NCBI GenBank assembly: GCA_036703985.1
Contig: DATNQN010000002.1
Location: 1 to 64,000, forward strand
DNA from: Leptolyngbyaceae cyanobacterium
Lineage (GTDB): Bacteria > Cyanobacteriota > Cyanobacteriia > Cyanobacteriales > Aerosakkonemataceae
Length of the DNA stretch: 64,000 bases
Reading direction: 5' to 3'
Below, piece after piece: positions 4,690-9,461 of the stretch. The notes below the pieces were generated by a model. That model worked only from the letters and a program-made list of their open reading frames with translations, was not told where the DNA came from and did no database searches. Every line of letters begins with the position of its first letter. Positions within the stretch are counted from its first letter, which is position 1. A program made the position numbers and the translations under genes.

Positions 4690-7600
4690 TTAAATTATGT
4701 TTTCCTGAACTTTATGGGGTAATTCTACATCAAAATGCGTCCAGCCATTGCCGCTTTCCACCTTAATATTTCCTCCCATTTGTTCCACCAGCTTTTGAAC
4801 TAAAGCAAGCCCTAAGCCGGTACCCCCTTGTTTCCAAAGGTCTGCTTGGAGAACTCGATAAAACTTTCTAAACAAATGAGGTAATTCAGCAACAGGTATT
4901 TCCACTTCATTACTGACGTTGAACACAGTTAAGGGAACTTGATTATGAACTGTCACTGATGATTTAGAGTGGTTAATTAAGGAATTAGGCTCTCCCTCAT
5001 TGTCAGAACTAGTCGTTCCTATTCCTCTACCATTTGGATAATACTCAACCTGCAAAATTATGCCGCCTCCAGATGGAGTATATTTACAAGCATTGTTCAG
5101 TAATTCTACAACTATTCTTCCCAATCCAGCCCGGTCTGTGAGTAAGGGAGGTACATTAGGAGAAAGTTTAAATTGAAAGTTTTGGCTGCGTTCTTGAACG
5201 CGACTGAGAAATGGTTCGACAATAGAAGGTAACCACTCTTGTAGATTAACTGATTCGGCTAGAGATAAAGGATAGGATTCGGCTTCTAATCTTTGCAAGT
5301 CTAACAAATCGTTTATTAATTCGGTTTCGCGATCGCACTCGGATTTAAGAATTTGTAAATATCTTTCCTGTCGTTCTGGTGAGGGAGCAATTTTTAACAT
5401 TTGAATGGCCATTTTCATATTAGCCATCGGCGTGCGTAATTCGTGAGAAACTGTACTCAAAAAGTCATCTTTGAGCAAGTTTAGCTTTTCTAATTCTGCT
5501 ACTCTGGCTTGCTCTGCTCGATAAAGTCTAGCTTGCCTAATTGCGATCGCGCATTGATTTGCTACCTGTTGTACTAGTCTAATTTCTAATTCTCTAAAAG
5601 CATATTCCTTATGATTAATTAACCACAAATCTCCCAACACGCCTTCATTATCAAAAATTGGGCAAGTAAACATCGAGACTAACCCTCGTACCGGATTAGG
5701 CACGATAGAACAAAATTGAAAATACTCTTTTCGTAATAGTTGATTGTATATTTCCGGCCATTTTCCCATTTGGGCTACCCGTCCTTGTTCGCCTGGAATG
5801 GAAACGGCATATTCATAACGAATAGTAGAAGTACCTTTTTCAAGATCGTAAATAGCTGCGTTACAAGAGCTAATATTTAACCCAGTTGCTAACTCTCTAA
5901 CCGCTGTTTGTAAAATTTGGTTTTCATCTAAACTATCCCTTACTTTATCCGTGATGCGTTTGAGCATTGTTTCTAATTCCAATGCTTGTTGTAACTGGGC
6001 TGTTCGTTCTTGCACTTGGCTTTCTAACTCAGCATTCAATCGAGAAATTTGTTTAAAAAGGGAAGATTGTTGAATTGCAAGCGCTAACGTACTGGCTAAA
6101 TTTTGTAACAATTCAATTTCAAACGGTTGCCAATGACGAGATTCCGAACACTGATGAGCGCATAATAAACCCCACAACTGTTTGTTAAATACAATTGGTA
6201 CAACTAAATTAGCTCTAATGTTTATTTTTTCTAAAAGTTTTTTGTGGCACTCACTAACATTGGCTATTTTAATATCATCAATAGCCGATATTTGCCCTTG
6301 TTGAAACTTCTCAATATATTTACTATTAAAACAAGTATCATTACAGTAAACATTTAATACTGATGAGCAATTTGGTGCAATAGATTCTACAATAAACTTA
6401 CCTCCATTTTTTCGATCGATTTGGTAAATAGCTACTCGTTCTACTTGTAAAAAACTACGTACTTCTGCAACGGCTTGACTAATAATTTCATCTACGTTCA
6501 ATGACTGACGAATGCGTTCTTGCATCATTCCTAACAAACGCTCTCGTTCAGTTTGTTGCCGAAGAGCTTCTTCTGCTTGTTTGCGCTCTGTGATATCTTG
6601 TGCTGCACCATATATTAGCAATACCCGCTCTTTATCGTCACAATAAACTGGTTGGCTGTAGTCACGCAGCCAACGAATTTTTCCTTCTTTAGTAAAAATT
6701 CGGTATTCGCTGATATCTGATTGCCAACACAAAATGGTTTGTAGGCGCTCCGAAAAAATCGGCATATCATCAGGATGAATCAGCGTTTGCCAACCATTCC
6801 TTGCTTTGATTTCTTCCCAACTAAAACCAGATATTCTGCTAAAAGCACCTGTAATCCAATCAGTAATAAATCTTCCTTCAGAATCAATTCTAGCAGCATA
6901 GGCAAAGTCGGATGTTAGTTCGGAAACTATTCGATAGCGTTCTTCACTTTTTGCTAATTGTCTTTCTGCTTGCTTGCGCTCGGTTACGTCTCTAACAATT
7001 AAAACGATTTCCTCGTTAAGTACGGGTACGATTCTAGCTTCAAAATCATATTTTTTCCCATTGTTTATTTGATATTCAAAAGTTTCTATCTTTTTACTGA
7101 TAGAGGCTTCTTTAATAATTTTACTGGCTTTATTAGCAATTGGTTTAGGGAGGATTTCCGATACTTTTTTGCCTAATAACTCGTTAGCAGGTAATTGAAG
7201 CTTAAAGTTCGGAGGAGCTTTATAATCTAAATAAATACCATCTTTATTTAAAAGAAAAATAGCATCTGGTATGGCATCTAATAAAAATTGTGTTGTTTGG
7301 TTAGGTTGCCATGCTGAATTAGTTTCTTTGGAGTTGCTAATATTAATAAATATTCCCACAAAACCAGCGATTTTGCCATTAGATTCTTTAATAGTTGAGT
7401 AAGTTACTTCTACCCAAAATCGATTACCGTCTTTTCGTTGTAGTAAAATTTGTCCCGTCCACTGACCCCGATCTAACAGGACACGGATAATTCTTCGTGC
7501 TTGTTCGCTACTTTTTTGAGGAAGGATAATAATTTTATCAATATTTTCGCTTATTACTTCTGATGCTTGCCATTGATATAGTATTTCGGAATGGCGGTTC

Positions 7601-7794
7601 CAGTAAGTAATTCTTCCTTTTCTATCCGTAGCAATAACGGCTTGAGAAATATGATTTAAAAGGGATGCCTCAAAACCCATTTGCTTTTCTACCTGCGGCT
7701 GTACTTCTGCCGCTATGAAGATTGATGAGCTTAGTCGATCGACTACGCTATCCTGACGGTATTCATCTAGACTATCAAACCGTTCTAGTTTCAT
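4690..7794 (-). CDS. Cyanobacteriochrome sensor histidine kinase (DXCF type)
   Basis: A 1034-residue cytoplasmic sensor kinase. Order: PAS about 44-155, PAS 170-275, PAS 290-405, GAF1 425-580, coiled coil 585-610, GAF2 610-765, HisKA with SHELRTP (phospho-acceptor His784), and HATPase with N box (ELLNNACKYTPSGGG) and G box (GGTGLGLALV). GAF1 shows the features of a bilin-binding cyanobacteriochrome: D-T-C-F at 486-489 (the DXCF second-cysteine motif), C516-H517 (the canonical bilin cysteine plus His), then LVVPI and LWGLLCAHQC. The 28-residue gap between the two cysteines matches TePixJ-type blue/green sensors. GAF2 lacks these cysteines. No receiver domain or regulator gene is adjacent. Light sensing is inferred from motifs; histidine kinase activity is very likely. 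Confidence 0.88.
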   Translation of the reverse strand: MKLERFDSLDEYRQDSVVDRLSSSIFIAAEVQPQVEKQMGFEASLLNHISQAVIATDRKGRITYWNRHSEILYQWQASEVISENIDKIIILPQKSSEQARRIIRVLLDRGQWTGQILLQRKDGNRFWVEVTYSTIKESNGKIAGFVGIFINISNSKETNSAWQPNQTTQFLLDAIPDAIFLLNKDGIYLDYKAPPNFKLQLPANELLGKKVSEILPKPIANKASKIIKEASISKKIETFEYQINNGKKYDFEARIVPVLNEEIVLIVRDVTERKQAERQLAKSEERYRIVSELTSDFAYAARIDSEGRFITDWITGAFSRISGFSWEEIKARNGWQTLIHPDDMPIFSERLQTILCWQSDISEYRIFTKEGKIRWLRDYSQPVYCDDKERVLLIYGAAQDITERKQAEEALRQQTERERLLGMMQERIRQSLNVDEIISQAVAEVRSFLQVERVAIYQIDRKNGGKFIVESIAPNCSSVLNVYCNDTCFNSKYIEKFQQGQISAIDDIKIANVSECHKKLLEKINIRANLVVPIVFNKQLWGLLCAHQCSESRHWQPFEIELLQNLASTLALAIQQSSLFKQISRLNAELESQVQERTAQLQQALELETMLKRITDKVRDSLDENQILQTAVRELATGLNISSCNAAIYDLEKGTSTIRYEYAVSIPGEQGRVAQMGKWPEIYNQLLRKEYFQFCSIVPNPVRGLVSMFTCPIFDNEGVLGDLWLINHKEYAFRELEIRLVQQVANQCAIAIRQARLYRAEQARVAELEKLNLLKDDFLSTVSHELRTPMANMKMAIQMLKIAPSPERQERYLQILKSECDRETELINDLLDLQRLEAESYPLSLAESVNLQEWLPSIVEPFLSRVQERSQNFQFKLSPNVPPLLTDRAGLGRIVVELLNNACKYTPSGGGIILQVEYYPNGRGIGTTSSDNEGEPNSLINHSKSSVTVHNQVPLTVFNVSNEVEIPVAELPHLFRKFYRVLQADLWKQGGTGLGLALVQKLVEQMGGNIKVESGNGWTHFDVELPHKVQENII

Positions 7795-8096: not shown

Positions 8097-8768
8097 ATGA
8101 ATCAACCTAAGTTAGAAGAAATTTCGGCCCAGCTAGAAAGTAGCTCTTCTCGCGATCGAATGCTTGCTTTAGCGAAGCTGAGAGATGTTCCAGCAATCGA
8201 GGCAGTGCCTTTGATTAAAAAAGTTTTGGATGATGAAAACCTGCAAATTCGTTCAATGGCCGTGTTTGCTTTAGGGATTAAACAGACACCAGAGTGTTAT
8301 CCGATTTTAGTGAAATTGCTGGAAACTGACCCGGATTACGGAATTCGTGCGGATGCAGCAGGTGCTTTGGGTTACTTAGAAGATAGACGTGCCTTAGAAC
8401 CATTGGTACGAGCTTTTTATGAAGATACCGATTGGCTGGTGCGTTTCAGCGCGGCAGTAGCACTGGGAAATCTGAAGGACTTACGTGCTTATGAAGTATT
8501 GATTGAAGCTTTAGATAGCAAAGAAGTGGTTCTGCAACAGGCTGCGATCGCAGCTTTGGGTGAAATCAAAGCCGTAGAATCAGTAGAGTCTATTCTCCGC
8601 TTTGCTCAAGCTGAGGATTGGCTAGTACGCCAGCGCTTGGCAGAAGCTTTAGGACATCTTCCTCATCCGAAAAGCGTTCCCGCTCTCAAATACCTAGCAA
8701 AAGATAGCCATCACCAAGTTGCAGAAGCTGCAAAAATTTCCTTACGTCGTTTAAATGATGAAGCTTGA
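8097..8768 (+). CDS. HEAT-repeat protein of the PBS-lyase/NblB-like type
   Basis: A 223-residue soluble protein made of about six HEAT-like repeats. The units show the D-x-x-(V/I)-R-x-x-A-x-x-A-L-G pattern, for example at GIRADAAGALGYL, LVRFSAAVALGNL, VLQQAAIAALGEI and LVRQRLAEALGHL. The same solenoid is used by the CpcE/F phycobilin lyases and by the phycobilisome degradation factor NblB. With cpcS next on the same strand a role in phycobilisome assembly or turnover is plausible, but the repeat fold alone cannot fix the partner. Most widespread cyanobacterial members are of unknown function. Confidence 0.75.
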   Translation: MNQPKLEEISAQLESSSSRDRMLALAKLRDVPAIEAVPLIKKVLDDENLQIRSMAVFALGIKQTPECYPILVKLLETDPDYGIRADAAGALGYLEDRRALEPLVRAFYEDTDWLVRFSAAVALGNLKDLRAYEVLIEALDSKEVVLQQAAIAALGEIKAVESVESILRFAQAEDWLVRQRLAEALGHLPHPKSVPALKYLAKDSHHQVAEAAKISLRRLNDEA

Positions 8769-8891: not shown

Positions 8892-9461
8892 ATGGATATT
8901 CAAGAATTTTTCCAGCTAAGTGCTGGCAAATGGTTTTCACAGCGTACTAGCCATCATTTAGCGTTTAAGCAATCAGAGAATGGCAAGTCCAATATCACTA
9001 TTGAAATGCTGCCCGCAGACGATCCGAAAGTGATCGAACTATGTCAGGAGTATAACGTACCTCCAGAGAGTGCTAGAGGTGCGGCTCGCGTCAGTTGGGA
9101 CGGTACGATGGAATGGGATGAGGAAAAACACGCTGGTTCTTCGGTGTTGGTACCGATTCCCGATCCCGATAAGCCTAATGAAGGCAAGTTATTGCGGGAT
9201 GTAGGCTATGCTGAAAAGGCGGGAGTAGCCGGTCGCTACATTATGAGCGGCGATGGTGCGTTAACCTTGATTACCGAGTACGAGACGATGTACTCAGAGG
9301 AGCGCATTTGGTTTGCCAGCCCTAATTTGCGGCTGAGAACTAGCATTTTGAAACGGTTTGGTGGCTTTAGCATGGCATCTTTTTGCTCGGAAATTCGGAT
9401 GGGTGTTACCCAAAGTGCTGCCAAGCAAGCAGATGCTTCTGAAGTAAAGGTTAAAAGTTAA
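8892..9461 (+). CDS. cpcS: Phycobiliprotein chromophore lyase, CpcS/CpeS family
   Basis: Members of this lipocalin-fold family attach phycocyanobilin to Cys84-type sites of phycobiliprotein subunits. The 189-residue length and blocks such as [20 protein letters not shown] near the start, [10 protein letters not shown] mid-protein, and [17 protein letters not shown] near the C-terminus fit CpcS well. The SQR-T-x-H-H segment and the C-terminal W-F-A-x-x-N-L-R-x-R block are family hallmarks. It follows the HEAT-repeat gene on the same strand after 123 bp of repeat-rich spacer. Which subfamily (CpcS-I, CpcS-III or CpeS) cannot be settled without alignment. Confidence 0.88.

Follow-up and report, generated by a model that had tools for sequence, protein, structure and literature searches.

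A probable dual-cysteine DXCF cyanobacteriochrome domain in a sensor kinase divergent from a HEAT-cpcS gene pair in a Leptolyngbyaceae cyanobacterium

Which signal enters a long sensor histidine kinase that profile libraries name only by its PAS and GAF domains, and could that signal be light? The gene lies in the window (the whole stretch of DNA analysed, 64,000 nucleotides from a 7.68-Mb assembly), where its open reading frame of 1,034 residues occupies positions 4690-7794 of the minus strand, the plus strand having many stops there. Its features are as follows:

4690..7794, minus strand: sensor histidine kinase, PAS-PAS-PAS-GAF1(DXCF)-GAF2-HisKA-HATPase_c, 1,034 aa (open reading frame with Pfam and NCBIfam)
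7315..7665, minus strand: first PAS repeat, residues 44-160 (best of three TIGR00229 stretches)
6607..6852, minus strand: third PAS, residues 315-396 (best stretch of Pfam PAS_3)
6073..6495, minus strand: GAF1, cyanobacteriochrome-type GAF, residues 434-574 (Pfam, PDB matches, tree and structure match)
6343..6345, minus strand: C484, a third Cys at D-2 (CxDxCF), in the column of the red/green-sensor Trp (ortholog alignment; meaning of the position from passages of PMC11284453)
6328..6339, minus strand: D486-T-C488-F489, DXCF motif with the second Cys, C488 corresponding to TePixJ C494 (motif scan and register)
6244..6249, minus strand: C516-H517, canonical bilin Cys-His, corresponding to TePixJ C522-H523 (motif scan and register)
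5539..5931, minus strand: GAF2, residues 622-752, both bilin columns without an aligned Cys (Pfam and profile alignment)
5278..5472, minus strand: HisKA with H784 (SHELRT) (Pfam and motif)
4714..5136, minus strand: HATPase_c, residues 887-1027 (Pfam)
4894..4914, minus strand: G1-box region S961-NEVEI-P967, without the usual D-x-G-x-G (sequence)

The three PAS domains counted by the sequence-only reading were recovered as three TIGR00229 stretches, together with the two GAF domains, HisKA and HATPase_c, and its expectation that plain annotation would miss a photoreceptor was borne out, as Pfam and NCBIfam name GAF1 only as GAF. Indeed, no photoreceptor label for the kinase appeared among the Pfam families shown or among the best 25 of 85 NCBIfam matches, and Pfam at E <= 0.001 (models PAS, GAF, HisKA and HATPase_c) gave no PHY domain beside GAF1. 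The nearest named matches came from an uncultured cyanobacterium (L031), Argonema antarcticum (L032) and Phormidium sp. LEGE 05292 (L033). GAF2 was considered as a second photosensor and rejected, since neither of its bilin columns has an aligned Cys.

The case for light perception starts from two cysteines of GAF1, which had been read from the letters as D486-T-C488-F489 and C516-H517 followed by LVVPI and LWGLLCAHQC; the positions are exact (DTCF at 486, CHKK at 516, a Cys-Cys spacing of 28), with the two following segments located at 530 and 540. When GAF1 was compared with TePixJ by phmmer, DTCF fell on DPCF and CH on CH without gaps, and searches against the PDB returned 6oap as best match (3.1e-43) and TePixJ 3vv4 at 1.3e-30. 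The AlphaFold model of GAF1 (pLDDT 89.8, built on 25 aligned GAF sequences of the window and the named loci) superposed in a VIA match on TePixJ 4glq, with Z 22.1, rmsd 2.3 and 149/149 residues aligned, and since model residues 21-169 match 4glq residues 436-584, C488 and C516 fall on TePixJ C494 and C522. These two TePixJ cysteines hold the bilin, according to passages of PMC6955287. In addition, D486, H517 and N529 of GAF1 correspond to TePixJ D492, H523 and N535, and TePixJ Q526 and R507 are replaced by L520 and Q501. Note that other bilin GAFs, phytochromes included, fit GAF1 equally well or better by Z, so that the predicted fold speaks for the bilin-GAF class and not for the DXCF type. 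An insert-Cys type was also tried for GAF1 and rejected, with no insertion relative to TePixJ across the 149 residues.

The placement of GAF1 among other GAF domains points the same way. In a tree of 123 rows, from which the six motif columns were removed and rows shorter than 140 residues left out, GAF1 groups with eight orthologs in a single clade (SH-aLRT 100) within a 58-row bilin-type group (91), which also contains all 30 other canonical-Cys GAFs of the host genome present in the tree and all seven PDB references. GAFs of the same genome without the canonical Cys lie mostly elsewhere (65 outside the group and 6/71 inside). Clustering of GAF1 with non-photosensory GAFs had been set as a test by the sequence-only reading, and the outcome favours the photosensory side, on deep branches that are weak. 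GAF1 lies outside the red/green clade (SH-aLRT 99) of the PDB reference entries NpR6012g4, AnPixJg2 and Slr1393g3, and it shares no supported clade with TePixJ. Domains with two Cys are dispersed across the tree and do not form one clade (13 label changes vs 15.3 when shuffled). An extended red/green (XRG) assignment was rejected for GAF1, which reads C-N-D-T-C-F and not W-x-D-x-x-L and falls outside the XRG clade.

Could such a cysteine pair arise by chance, or persist as a relic? The host genome (G000) gave 151 GAF matches above threshold, and of 151 GAF rows aligned to the cyanobacteriochrome profile 38 carry the canonical bilin Cys and 18 have a Cys in both columns, which amounts to a large repertoire of photoreceptors. 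For the chance test on these 151 rows, 85 had letters at the tested columns and 66 were dropped; D-x-C-F occurred in 10/35 rows with the canonical Cys (GAF1 included) vs 0/50 without it (Fisher p = 5.9e-5), so that GAF1 is not unique in its pair, the host genome having ten rows of this kind. Within the host family, a full or near-full length ortholog of the kinase was found in 10/10 genomes (host counted), with the canonical Cys in all ten (CH in seven, CY in three) and the DxCF Cys in nine, both cysteines thus being kept in 9/10 genomes at about 60-70% full-length identity. The association of D-x-C-F with the canonical Cys, together with this conservation among orthologs, indicates that the GAF1 pair is real. 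The remaining ortholog (L119 / L131, genome G009) is a natural single-Cys form with DPYF in place of DXCF, its canonical Cys retained as CY. At the level of the host's order, kinase matches at E <= 1e-180 were found in 5/60 genomes (three of the host family, plus G018 and G046), with 13 candidates scored per genome, so that absence is not strict.

Outside the host family, related kinases differ in their photosensory domain. GAF1 scores 214-229 bits on the cyanobacteriochrome profile in the host family; eight related kinases (L034, L065, L277, L278 and four Moorena loci) have a cyanobacteriochrome-like first GAF of 176-204 bits with neither Cys. Only weaker GAFs were found in L063, L068 and L268 (93-111 bits) and in L043, L048, L056 and L064 (28-73 bits), and the search for a cyanobacteriochrome-like GAF gave no match in L066, L067 and L069. 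From these comparisons of sequences, the host family appears to have kept the light input, which other lineages may have lost or may never have had, although they keep the kinase and in part the locus; bilin may also bind to GAFs without these cysteines. The eight kinases with neither Cys, and the family ortholog L119 lacking the DXCF Cys, raise the alternative that GAF1 itself is blind, with cysteines kept by descent and bilin no longer bound, as may be so in these relatives; we consider this highly unlikely in view of the retention of both cysteines in nine of the ten family genomes and of the canonical Cys in all of them.

A chromophore is expected in the host. Its genome has one bilin reductase, scoring as PcyA (370.5 vs a cut-off of 206), and two heme oxygenases, which leads us to expect synthesis of phycocyanobilin (PCB); with PcyA the only bilin reductase found, synthesis of phycoerythrobilin is not indicated. 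GAF1 combines the features of the DXCF class: membership of the bilin-GAF group, a canonical Cys with His, the D-x-C-F Cys, no PHY domain, and a host that makes PCB as judged from its genes. The register, the predicted fold, the tree, the conservation and the supply of bilin agree on a dual-Cys DXCF-type cyanobacteriochrome domain, as had been proposed from the sequence. Altogether, GAF1 is very probably a dual-cysteine, blue-absorbing DXCF cyanobacteriochrome photoreceptor, an estimate that excludes the target of the kinase; the analysis itself shows the cysteines, their register, the predicted fold, conservation and the bilin synthesis genes, and we infer bilin binding, colours, control of the kinase and its target. 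Several points weigh against the dual-Cys reading, namely that TePixJ is not grouped with GAF1, the dispersal of two-Cys domains over the tree, the six host GAFs inside the bilin-type group that lack the canonical Cys, the L520/Q501 swaps, CY in three orthologs (one of them with DPYF as well), the degenerate G1 box and a best PDB match, 6oap, without the DXCF Cys.

Every step of the proposed working beyond the cysteines is drawn from TePixJ-type proteins. C516 would bind PCB stably at ring A, and in the dark state C488 would form an adduct at C10; the conjugated system, thereby made shorter, would absorb blue or violet light. Light would then flip the 15,16 double bond and release C488, and the resulting state would absorb at longer wavelength, in the green if GAF1 follows typical DXCF behaviour and PCB is isomerised to phycoviolobilin (PVB). 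The signal may reach HisKA/HATPase_c by way of GAF2 and the linker, the three PAS domains being possible further inputs, and the output could be an acclimation of the antenna in which the divergent HEAT-cpcS genes take part, judging from gene position alone.

The colour of the photoproduct is not readable from the DXCF motif, and here the sequence-only reading of a blue/green photoreceptor kinase is supported in part: the dual-Cys, blue-absorbing sensor is well supported, but the blue/green pair and PCB-to-PVB isomerisation are not established, given that DXCF photoproducts range from teal to orange (passages of PMC6628166 and PMC5240096). The same range makes it possible, if only tentatively so, that the two-Cys GAF1 keeps PCB or is otherwise tuned (blue/teal, blue/yellow or blue/orange), possibly via C484, an alternative that differs from the best explanation in colour only. 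In its favour, C484 is present two residues before the motif Asp (C-N-D-T-C-F), in a column that holds Trp in red/green sensors, where a Cys at the Trp position accompanies a changed dark-state colour in red/green relatives; against it, blue/green is the typical DXCF behaviour (both in passages of PMC11284453). According to the same source, as far as its passages go, in one protein of the CXDXXL red/green group PCB-to-PVB isomerisation depended on three residues, of which this Cys mattered most, and two other proteins with the same Cys gave no isomerisation.

The third cysteine, which like the gene neighbourhood is absent from the sequence-only reading, appears restricted in our sample of 250 distinct domains (124 with the canonical Cys, 74 of these DxCF), which was assembled by similarity to GAF1 and from the host genome and is thus not a census. 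Among the 74 DxCF domains, the residue in the C484 column is most often Ile (53), then Val (8), Leu (7), Cys (5) and Gly (1); each of the five domains with Cys is a GAF1 ortholog, three genera of the host family being represented, and the other five family orthologs have Leu.

Whether a light signal would reach an active kinase depends on the catalytic core. Its H784, N-box (NACKY) and GGTGLGL motif are all intact, and the G1 box reads SNEVEIP and not D-x-G-x-G, a departure from which it could be argued that the protein senses light but is no active kinase, serving instead as phosphatase, scaffold or heterodimer partner. We regard this as unlikely, given the three intact elements and the wide occurrence of the variant: D-x-G-x-G is absent in 99/148 distinct kinase rows (at least two of these being chance matches), and nearly all 99 are Asn-type, five host paralogs (L312-L316) included, in rows that come mostly from loci like this kinase. 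Such frequency among the non-canonical rows suggests a working variant. Among the rows from the host genome, 33 are canonical at this box and 7 are not. A large group of cyanobacterial kinases shares the Asn-type G1 box (N-S-G-V-E-I-P and variants) with an intact GxGLGL.

What the kinase might control is suggested by the two genes that lie beyond its start:

8097..8768, plus strand: HEAT-repeat protein, NblB-like, divergent neighbour of the kinase (Pfam, NCBIfam)
8892..9461, plus strand: CpcS/CpeS-type phycobiliprotein lyase (Pfam CpeS 2.6e-75; PDB 3bdr 3.7e-87)

An assignment of the HEAT protein as NblB itself was rejected (153.9 bits vs the NCBIfam cut-off of 300) and the name kept as NblB-like, IaiH being a possible alternative. 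The kinase is divergent from the HEAT gene, usually followed by the CpcS lyase gene, in 6/6 family loci fetched, the kinase gap being wider in G009. On the named contigs, L031 and L032 carry HEAT and CpcS, and L033 carries HEAT before the contig ends; by identity values, the three apparently equal G004, G002 and G006, and the family genome G008 was left out. The 302-base gap between kinase and HEAT gene was compared across the family for a conserved regulatory site: the six family gaps show 51% mean column identity, with invariant columns clustered in an AT-rich stretch beside the HEAT gene, a pattern on which we base no such site.

The HEAT-cpcS pair is widely conserved, more widely than the kinase. 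Phylum-wide, 45/117 genomes have a HEAT match, and among the best 30 of the 45 HEAT loci (window included; L297 with only about 0.13 kb upstream), a CpcS-like gene lies within 1.5 kb in 22 and a related kinase only in the window. Starting from close CpcS relatives in other families (72-80% identity), HEAT lies beside CpcS in 8/13 neighbourhoods, with a related kinase divergent from HEAT in two of those eight (L264, the same locus as L068, and L268) and a contig edge just past HEAT in L275. Further linked named loci are L063 (HEAT only) and four Moorena contigs, with HEAT in 4/4 and CpcS in three. The kinases of seven such loci outside the host family are without pocket cysteines or without a photosensory GAF, and for the kinases of G018 and G046 no HEAT or CpcS match was found in the stretches fetched. 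In a kinase-core tree of 64 rows (5/69 wanted loci missing, namely L039, L040, L052, L053 and L057), a single origin of the 17 linked kinases is neither rejected (p-AU 0.53; the single-origin arrangement scored above the free tree by 1.10 log units) nor shown. In the same tree, the kinase from L044, a contig labelled as a Tatlockia (Legionellaceae) MAG, falls among Aliterella and Chlorogloea; this is probably a mis-binned cyanobacterial contig. A limited literature search found no description of a cyanobacteriochrome kinase beside HEAT-cpcS, which is no proof of absence.

Taken to its furthest, the evidence could be read as a three-Cys sensor (C484, C488 and C516) in which C484 takes part in the photochemistry, through ring-A twist and isomerisation or as a rival adduct, giving a distinct photocycle, with the kinase switching the divergent HEAT-cpcS genes according to light colour and so acting on bilin attachment, at a locus with blind sister lineages; we judge this whole to be improbable. 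The narrower reading of GAF1 as a dual-Cys DXCF sensor already turns an entry named only as a PAS/GAF kinase by profile libraries into a testable photoreceptor in Argonema-related cyanobacteria. The series of related kinases, which have three cysteines, two, one or none, or lack a photosensory GAF altogether, and often share one conserved locus, would let the tuning and loss of light input be tested while the kinase stays, and would allow a test of light-colour control over bilin-lyase expression.

Set beside known systems, GAF1 is a well-supported addition to the DXCF cyanobacteriochromes, ordinary in kind, whose specialist interest lies in the third Cys and in a conserved locus with sighted and blind versions. 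The CXDXXL domains of the red/green lineage (MCC3606390g2 and relatives, in passages of PMC11284453) share with it the Cys two residues before the motif Asp but have no DXCF Cys, whereas GAF1 has both cysteines and lies outside that clade. TePixJ (PDB 3vv4, 4fof, 4glq and 6p58) is alike in its GAF fold, the gapless DXCF and Cys-His, the spacing of 28 and 57/142 identical residues, but the PDB names it a methyl-accepting chemotaxis protein, its residue at the C484 position is Ile and it shares no supported clade with GAF1. The dual sensor histidine kinase 6oap, the best PDB match with 44% identity over the GAF, has DQYF for DXCF and hence no second Cys there. DpxA of Fremyella diplosiphon is probably of the DXCF type. 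Although it is teal/yellow and represses phycoerythrin, the host here having PcyA as the only bilin reductase found, DpxA resembles the proposed output in being a cyanobacteriochrome with measured kinase activity that adjusts phycobilisome composition (passages of PMC4937213).
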